In this document: piece after piece, positions 10,858 to 13,539 of the stretch
How the letters are laid out: each line of letters starts with the position of its first letter
Numbering within the stretch: the stretch's first letter is position 1
Source: [Synechococcus] sp. NIES-970
Lineage (GTDB): Bacteria > Cyanobacteriota > Cyanobacteriia > Cyanobacteriales > MRBY01
Direction: 5' to 3'
Length of the DNA stretch: 64,000 bases
Assembly (NCBI GenBank): GCA_002356215.1
Contig: AP017959.1
Coordinates: forward strand, 2,248,195 to 2,312,194
Translations under genes and position numbers: made by a program
The notes under the pieces: model-generated
Seen by the model: the letters and a program-made list of their open reading frames with translations, nothing else
Databases searched by the model: none
What the model was told of the DNA's origin: nothing

Positions 10858-12879
10858 ATGACGGTTTCCCCCACGGTGATCAACAGCATCCTCACACGCC
10901 TAGAAACCATCGAAGCACGTCAAAATTTGCTCAAAAATCATCTGCTGGGTCTGAAAGGTCAGGTTGAGGAACTCCAACGGGTGATCACGGCTAATCCCGG
11001 TCAACAGGCGATCGCCGCAGACCTCAACCAACATCTCAATACCCTCGAAGGCGAGTATTTTGGGCAGGCAGCCGCAAAAAATACCAAGCAACCCGACCCT
11101 TCCCCAAACACTTCCTTAGACGACATTTTAGCGGGGGATGACCTCGCCCTACTGGGCCTTTCCGACGCAGAATTAATGGCCAACCTCGACCTAGACACCC
11201 TCCAACTCAATGGGTCTGAAACCTTTGATTTGGGCGAAGATCTAGACCTTATGGATCTCGACTTAGACACCCTCGATAAATTTGACCTCAACGGTGCTGA
11301 ATCTGGCCTAGACTTGTCCATGGGAGCGCTTGAACCCGTACAGAATCTTGAAAGCTTTGACCTTGGCAGTCAACGCATCGGCATAGATCTGTCCCTCGAT
11401 GACCTTGAATCCCTTGCAGAAGCTGATCCCCTTGAACCGAGTATCCCAGGGGATGATTTACCCACCGAAAACTGCCCTGAAGCTGTCACCACCAACCCCA
11501 GTTCTCGAGACAATATTGCCCCGAGCCCCCTAGATCAGGAGAAAACGCCTCCCGCAGAACCGGCAGAACCGCCCATTGCCAAAACTCCAGACATTCCTGT
11601 TTCTGCACCATCGCCTGAAACAAACTCAGCCAATAGCCCCCAACACTCTTTCCTGACAATTTTGACAGCGGCTGATATTCTCGCGCAGCGGGCAAAACAC
11701 CACACTCAATTTGTCAATTTGCAGCTATCCCATCTGTCATTGGCCCAGCAGGATCTACAACAAAGCATTTTTGATGGCAGTGATTGCCAAGGCTGTGATT
11801 TCCAAGACGCCGATCTGCGCGATAGTTCATTTCAGGGCTGCCCATTACAAGGGAGTAATTTTCAAGGGGCTTCTCTGGAGCGGGTGAATTTCACCAGGGC
11901 TAATCTCGAAAGGGCGCAATTTCAAGGAATTTTATTTAATGGCCGCACTAACTTCACGGGGGCGAACCTCCAGGAAGCAGACTTTAGAAATGTGGACTTT
12001 ACGCGATCGCCCATGATGGCTGACGCAAAACTTCGAGGCGCAGATTTCCGGGGGGCCAATTTCCGGGGGGCCAATCTCACAGGCTGGAATTTAGCAGGAG
12101 CAAAACTCCAGCGGGCGAACTTTATCGGTGCTGATTTACGGTCAACACAGCTCGAGCCAGAAGACTTCGACGGGGCAGTATACAGCCCAAATACCCTGTT
12201 TCCAGAAGGATTCATACCGGTAGGAGGGCTTTGCCTGGAAGCTGCGGCCCAATTGGAAAATGCAGATTTGCAGGACTTGGATTTACGACGCCTTGACCTG
12301 ACGGGGGTCAATTTCCGGGGGGCAAATTTGGCCGGGGCGATGTTACTTGACTGTGATCTGTCGAATGGAGATTGTCGGGGAACAAATTTTCGGCGATCGC
12401 AATTACGGGCCACCTGCCTAGAAACCAACTTCACAGATGCCGATTTTGGTGGGGCTGATCTCCGGGACGGGAACTTTACCGCCAGTTGTTTCCAGGGGGC
12501 AAATTTTCAGGGGGCAACCCTCAAGGCCGCCAATTTCACGGCGACAGATATGCGGCGAGCAAATTTCCGAGACAGTGACACATATCGCGCCAATTTTAAC
12601 GGCGCTAACCTCCAGGCCGTTGATCTAGTCGGCATTAACTTTGAGGGAGATTTGAGCGGCGCTGATCTCTCGGGGGCGCAGTTGCAGGGGGTGAATTTGA
12701 ATTATTTAGATTTGAGCTGGGCCAACCTGACCGGGGCCGATGTAACCGGAGCCAGCTTTAAGGAGACAAATTTAGACAATGCGAATCTACGGGGGGTCAA
12801 GGGCTTTGATTTACGGGCCCATGCCTACAAAATTTACCTAACGAATACAGTGATGCCCGATGGTAAAACCTGTGACTAG
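10858..12879 (+). CDS. Large pentapeptide-repeat protein with acidic Asp/Leu-rich N-terminal region
   Basis: The 673-residue protein has three parts. Residues 1-70 form a probable coiled coil (LTRLETIEARQNLLKNHLL). Residues about 85-260 are strongly acidic with recurring Asp-Leu patterns (LDLDTLQL, DLDLMDLDLDTLDKF, LDLSMGALE, IDLSLDDLESL), followed by a Pro/Ser/Glu-rich linker. From about 290 to the end there are dozens of pentapeptide repeats of the A(D/N)LXX type (NFQGASLERVNFTRANLERA). Such repeats fold as a right-handed beta-helix and usually mediate binding. Cysteines recur in the repeats near 310-330 and 480-520. No signal peptide is seen, and the function is unknown. It is followed by the DnaA-box-like cluster. 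Confidence 0.8.
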   Translation: MTVSPTVINSILTRLETIEARQNLLKNHLLGLKGQVEELQRVITANPGQQAIAADLNQHLNTLEGEYFGQAAAKNTKQPDPSPNTSLDDILAGDDLALLGLSDAELMANLDLDTLQLNGSETFDLGEDLDLMDLDLDTLDKFDLNGAESGLDLSMGALEPVQNLESFDLGSQRIGIDLSLDDLESLAEADPLEPSIPGDDLPTENCPEAVTTNPSSRDNIAPSPLDQEKTPPAEPAEPPIAKTPDIPVSAPSPETNSANSPQHSFLTILTAADILAQRAKHHTQFVNLQLSHLSLAQQDLQQSIFDGSDCQGCDFQDADLRDSSFQGCPLQGSNFQGASLERVNFTRANLERAQFQGILFNGRTNFTGANLQEADFRNVDFTRSPMMADAKLRGADFRGANFRGANLTGWNLAGAKLQRANFIGADLRSTQLEPEDFDGAVYSPNTLFPEGFIPVGGLCLEAAAQLENADLQDLDLRRLDLTGVNFRGANLAGAMLLDCDLSNGDCRGTNFRRSQLRATCLETNFTDADFGGADLRDGNFTASCFQGANFQGATLKAANFTATDMRRANFRDSDTYRANFNGANLQAVDLVGINFEGDLSGADLSGAQLQGVNLNYLDLSWANLTGADVTGASFKETNLDNANLRGVKGFDLRAHAYKIYLTNTVMPDGKTCD

Positions 12880-12934: not shown

Positions 12935-12984
12935 TGTGGAAAACTGTTGATTTTTTGTGGAAAAAGAATGGTACCTGTGGAAAA
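12935..12984 (-). promoter_or_regulatory. Three phased DnaA-box-like sites
   Basis: Three exact copies of TGTGGAAAA lie at 12935-12943, 12956-12964 and 12976-12984. The reverse complement TTTTCCACA is the DnaA-box form described for Synechococcus elongatus oriC. All three have the same orientation and lie 21 and 20 bases apart, close to two helical turns, so DnaA molecules would bind the same DNA face. No dnaA or dnaN gene is in the window, so this may be an accessory DnaA-binding site rather than the origin. Confidence 0.5.
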
Positions 12985-13272: not shown

Positions 13273-13539
13273 CTAAAACAACGCACCACCACCGAGTACA
13301 CTACCGACGGCTTGCAGGAGAAAGATCGCAATAATAGGAGACAAGTCAAGGCCACCCAGGGGCGGAATAAAAGACCGGAACAGGTTGAGATAAGGGTCGG
13401 TAACAGGGCTGAGAAAACCCATCACTTGCATTGCCCAATCAGCGGTTTGAAACCAACTCAAAAGAATGCGGACGATGAGGAGGAGAAGATAAATTTGGAT
13501 GAAGTTCCCGAGGCTGACTCGTAATAGTTCGGCTGCCAT
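13273..13539 (-). CDS. YggT family membrane protein
   Basis: The 88-residue integral membrane protein has two hydrophobic segments (about 12-30 and 65-85) flanking the family signature LSWFQTADW, then SPVTDPYLNLFR and FIPPLGGLDLSPI. In cyanobacteria and plastids YggT/YlmG proteins influence nucleoid partitioning, cell or plastid division, and biogenesis of photosynthetic complexes. In many bacteria yggT lies beside yggS (pipY) and sepF; here it is about 46 kb from them. ATG at 13539 gives the family's usual N-terminus. Length is normal for a single-unit member. Confidence 0.85.
   Translation of the reverse strand: MAAELLRVSLGNFIQIYLLLLIVRILLSWFQTADWAMQVMGFLSPVTDPYLNLFRSFIPPLGGLDLSPIIAIFLLQAVGSVLGGGALF

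Follow-up and report, generated by a model that had tools for sequence, protein, structure and literature searches.

Three phased DnaA boxes between converging genes in [Synechococcus] sp. NIES-970, a candidate control site for DnaA away from the origin

The window considered here is the whole 64-kb stretch of DNA (C1:2248195-2312194) that was analysed from the 3.12-Mb genome of [Synechococcus] sp. NIES-970 (G000). In it, a gene for a pentapeptide-repeat protein and a yggT-family gene converge, and between their two 3' ends lies a triplet of the word TTTTCCACA. The locus is made up as follows:

10858..12879, plus strand: pentapeptide-repeat protein gene (Pfam PF00805, 9.1e-68), with 55 bp between its 3' end and box 1
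12935..12943, minus strand: DnaA box 1, exact TTTTCCACA; invariant in all six genomes of the genus
12944..12955, no strand: 12-bp spacer, constant in length and variable in sequence in the six genus genomes
12956..12964, minus strand: DnaA box 2, exact TTTTCCACA; TTATCCACA, the E. coli consensus, in G003
12965..12975, no strand: 11-bp spacer, constant in length and variable in sequence in the six genus genomes
12976..12984, minus strand: DnaA box 3, exact TTTTCCACA
13273..13539, minus strand: yggT-family gene (Pfam PF02325, 2.5e-22), with 288 bp between box 3 and its 3' end

A script had labelled this arrangement as tandem and overlapping a frame, because predicted frames cover yggT and the boxes; the label was overruled by the Pfam match of the yggT gene.

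An exact-word search returned precisely three matches to TTTTCCACA in the window, all on the minus strand, with starts 21 and 20 bases apart, so that the three same-orientation boxes in 50 bases reported in the initial annotation are confirmed. The word is an established DnaA box of cyanobacteria according to the available text of PMC4674748, and the three copies are probably sites for DnaA, judging from their sequence. Their number is ordinary (the mean of shuffled windows is 1.11, and 12 of 100 shuffles reached at least three), and words with at most one mismatch to the box number 18 in the whole 64 kb. At the box density of the genome, only about 5e-6 same-strand triplets within 60 bp would be expected per genome, and it is therefore the clustering of the boxes that is unusual and not their count. 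A chance cluster was rejected on this expectation, on the conservation of the boxes in the genus and on their recurrence in the class. An RNA element was rejected as well, since the Rfam thresholds give only four tRNAs in the window. Predicted frames do run over the triplet in the window and in G001, with a 49-residue match between the two; however, the frames across it in G004 and G005 are no longer than 55 codons from stop to stop, no reading frame across it is common to the genus loci, and a coding explanation was rejected.

The whole genome contains 54 exact boxes, compared with 33 copies of the word read backwards, and the window triplet is the only triplet among the 54. The initial annotation had named many equal clusters across the genome as the finding that would speak against it, and the scan revealed none. 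Its placement of the boxes away from dnaA and dnaN is also borne out, with dnaN at C1:1418901-1420076 and dnaA at C1:2740597-2741898, both outside the window. The 16 kb retrieved around dnaN (C1:1412001-1428000) contain no exact box; five one-mismatch words are scattered over 4.2 kb there, compared with the 18 words of at most one mismatch in the window, and weak sites may be present. The 20 kb fetched around dnaA hold no exact-box cluster, only one box about 10 kb beyond the end of the gene. A dnaN with no exact box nearby differs from the dnaN-linked origins described in the available text of PMC4674748. The genome thus lacks an exact-box cluster at dnaN or dnaA, yet holds a conserved module of DnaA boxes elsewhere.

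The triplet is present in all six genus genomes, with spacers of 11 and 12 bp in every case and a single mismatch, in G003. Invariant positions across the six make up 26 of 27 in the boxes, 3 of 23 in the spacers and 0 of 120 in the flanks, no conserved column being found among the 120 flank positions; the search tolerated three mismatches, so some of the conservation is built in, although no member of the genus was dropped by it. Conserved boxes with free spacers are what would be looked for in a site of the datA/DARS type. The distance from the triplet to dnaA amounts to 16.9, 46.5, 41.1 and 21.7% of the first contig, assumed circular, in G000, G001, G002 and G004, respectively, and a fixed position relative to dnaA was rejected.

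The genes beside the triplet change one side at a time within the genus, and the triplet stays. It is flanked in G003 and G004 by a relative of the pentapeptide gene, with the 3' end toward the triplet, and by glgA; in G005 by glgA, the contig ending on the other side; and in G001 and G002 by yggT and other genes. The two genes around the triplet of G002 run in tandem rather than converging, and a predicted gene starts 221 bp past it. In the window, no promoter of the pentapeptide or yggT gene faces the triplet, since both 3' ends point to it, and the boxes are not in the 5' region of a flanking gene, as they would be at a DnaA-regulated promoter. Relatives were also sought through the pentapeptide protein, and none was confirmed.

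A script sorted 89 cyanobacterial loci by their neighbours. It put 43 next to guaA, a cation-efflux gene or families often found with these, 11 at dnaA/dnaN, 10 next to DUF2811 or a gene of the amine-oxidase family, 6 next to yggT, pentapeptide or glgA genes (Xenococcus sp. PCC 7305 and five members of the window's genus) and 19 in other places. The set leaves out non-cyanobacterial loci, the untitled loci L133-L169, recognised duplicates and L052, which gave no exact match because of a spacer of 14; some duplicates persist (e.g., L096/L196). Rough calls in the guaA/cation-efflux group give 27 of 43 convergent, 7 tandem, 4 divergent, and the other 5 either lie at an edge or overlap a predicted frame. 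In other families, a guaA gene no more than 2.5 kb from an exact triplet always has its 3' end toward the triplet (31 of 31), as does the cation-efflux gene (30 of 30), in counts that include untitled loci and are incompletely de-duplicated. The possibility that the genus had left a triplet behind at guaA was rejected: about 4 kb at each of its six guaA loci hold no exact box, only scattered one-mismatch words.

The triplet is real, conserved and recurrent. In the class sample, exact triplets with 11-13-bp spacers occur in 98 of 290 genomes, some of which hold two or three, and the reversed control gave 0, in keeping with the earlier view that such a cluster is unlikely by chance. Among 40 relatives, 30 contain a phased pair or triplet (reversed control none). 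The helical phasing that had been proposed is upheld by all 85 phased places in these relatives, which are spaced 20-23 bp from start to start (20 bp in 19 places, 21 bp in 51, 22 bp in 13 and 23 bp in 2); the search also permitted 17-19 bp, and no such spacing was seen.

Several cyanobacteria (e.g., L060, L067, L103 and L125) also have the phased triplet in the interval between dnaN and dnaA. In clostridial contigs (L055, L056, L072, L073 and similar ones), the same phased triplet adjoins dnaN and dnaA, suggesting a common arrangement at origins. From these two sets of copies, the phased triplet is an arrangement found at origins. One relative, G025, has a dense array at dnaA/dnaN and, in addition, a separate triplet at guaA. 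On plasmid pSOE2 of Candidatus Pantoea edessiphila (L079), there are five pattern matches on 4.4 kb, possibly iterons.

Among the 40 relatives, the phased boxes track dnaA. A pair or triplet is present in 29 of the 30 genomes with dnaA by the family cut-off, against 1 of the 10 in which dnaA is absent or broken (Fisher 3.6e-7, or 2.5e-6 when collapsed to 33 families). The exceptions are G024, which has dnaA and no pair, and G027 (95% complete), which has a triplet and in which dnaA was not found. Some of the phased pairs are origin boxes; the sole pair of G039 adjoins dnaA, and moving this genome gives 28 of 30 against 1 of 10 (1.9e-6). G003 was scored as dnaA-bearing, although its dnaA has an in-frame stop, while G023, G032 (75% complete), G034 (61% complete, with a split dnaA) and G035 were scored as lacking dnaA or having it broken; without G003, G032 and G034, the Fisher value is 6e-6. 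The broken genes include the dnaA at G003:C32:56585-57888 and dnaA-like fragments with stops on contigs C86 and C97 of G023, and these may reflect either ongoing loss of dnaA or assembly error.

The association weakens as the sample grows. When 25 genomes were added to give 65 of the order, 40 dnaA-bearing genomes had a pair and 12 did not, against 2 with and 11 without among those lacking dnaA (p = 7e-5), the reversed control of the enlarged set giving one hit. Without the four genomes whose pair adjoins dnaA, the numbers are 36 and 16 against 2 and 11 (p = 9e-4). A single family, f33, supplies 10 of the 12 pairless dnaA-bearing genomes. Class-wide, the exact triplet shows no link to dnaA, occurring in 96 of 283 genomes above the cut-off and 2 of 7 below it, and most dnaA-bearing genomes do without it. 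The two below the cut-off are G233, with a broken dnaA, and the dnaA-less G298, whose exact triplet (G298:C2:18150-18200) has identical spacers, being a 21-bp tandem repeat; it was counted as present in the tables. Several free-living dnaA-less species fall in one clade (PMC7198777). The dnaA-less families may share few loss events, and the association was computed without a tree. A dependence of the element on dnaA is supported, though not cleanly, among near relatives only.

In Bacillus subtilis, DnaA-box clusters away from the origin affect initiation. DnaA there binds several regions outside the origin, according to the available part of PMC4447404, and the triplet would be comparable to such clusters. 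In E. coli, datA, DARS1 and DARS2 are, like the triplet, non-coding clusters of DnaA boxes at a distance from oriC; the core of DARS1 and of DARS2 consists of three boxes, the same number as in the triplet, and most changes in datA/DARS fall in the spacers (PMC4585315, in the portion available). Modules of this type would also be expected to include an IHF or Fis site and to promote DnaA-ATP hydrolysis or ADP release. Unlike them, the triplet has its boxes all on the same strand, separated by 11-13 bp, and while datA/DARS keep their distance from the origin, its distance from dnaA varies. Grouping of boxes leads to strong binding at the E. coli double DnaA box, by the same principle, although E. 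coli DnaA prefers 2-3 bp between boxes, compared with 11-13 bp here (PMC11317965, available text). The dnaN-linked oriC of Cyanothece ATCC 51142 and S. elongatus uses the same word, TTTTCCACA (available text of PMC4674748), but the Cyanothece origin has two boxes 2 nt apart, unlike the triplet. The triplet also lacks a nearby dnaN or dnaA and, in the window, apparently an AT-rich flank. No report of an off-origin DnaA cluster in cyanobacteria was found in the titles and abstract openings listed by searches of open-access literature.

Among the three options put forward in the initial annotation, the best fit is a locus that titrates or controls DnaA. The triplet may thus be an off-origin DnaA-binding control site that acts in the manner of datA/DARS with a spacing of its own, a reading that we hold tentatively, at a little under an even chance. 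DnaA would bind the same-strand boxes, about two helical turns apart, and so come to lie on one face of the DNA, where it could form an ordered oligomer. The site would then act on DnaA itself, by sequestering it or by altering its ATP/ADP state, rather than on a gene; DnaA is indicated as the target because the site is found mainly between the ends of genes and stays the same when the genes around it differ. Occupancy of the boxes, formation of the oligomer and the effect on DnaA are steps that we infer. The boxes do form a cluster in non-coding DNA off the origin genes, as in datA/DARS, whereas a fixed distance from the origin was not seen with dnaA as the stand-in for the origin in four genus genomes. 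Confidence in the control site is lowered by the lack of a class-level link for the exact triplet and by the pairs that adjoin origins.

An origin is less likely than a control site. The triplet could be a DnaA-dependent origin, sole or backup, in a lineage where the origin linked to dnaN no longer has exact boxes, which would fit both the phased triplets in cyanobacterial dnaN-dnaA regions and beside clostridial dnaA and the lack of an exact-box cluster at dnaN or dnaA in G000. It is a cluster of DnaA boxes, as in oriC, but neither dnaA nor dnaN adjoins it. The nearest 50 bp on each side of the window triplet are 56 and 50% AT (local background 51%), and the six genus loci average 57 and 63% (background 54%), compared with means of 64 and 78% at seven cyanobacterial dnaN-dnaA sites (background 58%); the AT-rich 3' flank of the latter seems to be missing in the window. 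A distance from dnaA that ranges between 16.9 and 46.5% within the genus makes a main origin unlikely, and the separate guaA triplet of G025, which has its dnaA/dnaN array as well, also speaks against an origin. In the related PCC 7002, marker frequency peaks near dnaA in the wild type and the dnaA mutant alike, which places the origin there (PMC7198777), a result that, we infer, applies to NIES-970. We consider the origin unlikely. The cumulative GC skew, which the initial annotation had suggested plotting, is too irregular to weigh here when coarsely sampled in 21 stretches of 20 kb, with its lowest sampled point at 568 kb and not at the triplet.

Regulation of transcription is a known role of DnaA (cf. 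PMC8203912, available part), and the boxes might regulate or terminate transcription of the neighbouring genes. The gene that starts 221 bp past the triplet in G002 would suit this, as would the one other phased pair of G000, which has DUF2811/pth on one side and a Rieske oxygenase on the other, read divergently. However, the two genes flanking the window triplet have their 3' ends there, a guaA or cation-efflux gene within 2.5 kb always points its 3' end at the boxes, and the boxes stay when neighbours change; gene control is thus improbable, and promoter control of a neighbour is unlikely. The boxes might instead mark the chromosome for organisation or segregation, or be read by another protein with the same recognition word, since the triplet occurs once in G000, is intergenic and indifferent to its neighbours, and shows no dnaA link at class level. 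That cyanobacteria are known to use this word as their DnaA box (PMC4674748, available text) and that phased pairs and triplets track dnaA among the 40 relatives make such a mark rather improbable. A functionless relic or chance cluster, for which the dispensability of DnaA in PCC 7002 might be cited, is very unlikely given the expectation of about 5e-6 per genome and the conserved boxes amid fully diverged flanks.

If the triplet is a control site for DnaA, which we offer as a testable lead, its role would be subtle in the laboratory, since in PCC 7002, where DnaA is scarce, neither growth nor replication is altered by deletion of dnaA (PMC7198777). The DnaA of PCC 7002, expressed in S. elongatus, was found by ChIP at the oriC region of that species, with its DnaA boxes, and the authors describe the role of DnaA in cyanobacteria that tolerate its deletion as unclear (PMC7198777). 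That dnaA can be deleted without effect in some cyanobacteria and is yet kept makes the triplet, as one small deletable target, useful for this question. It is conceivable, though doubtful, that three same-strand boxes with two-turn spacing form a class-wide, origin-independent DnaA module that survives in a lineage related to a DnaA-independent replicator and marks a function for which dnaA is kept. The same module in many families would allow a comparative test of off-origin DnaA control beyond E. coli and Bacillus.

The other phased pair of G000, at C1:598077 and C1:598098, belongs to a second element (L033:8041-8140, equal to C1:598041-598140) in which two exact boxes are 21 bp apart. Words resembling TTTCCCCA lie between and beside the boxes in steps of about 10 bp, and this ladder could be read in five genus genomes. 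The lowest sampled point of the GC skew (stretch C1:568001-588000) is near this element and not near the triplet, which was not counted as evidence. The pair is present in all six genus genomes, and the four distances from dnaA obtained for it are 24.5, 22.4, 24.0 and 31.7%. Further families also have pairs close to DUF2811 or pth.
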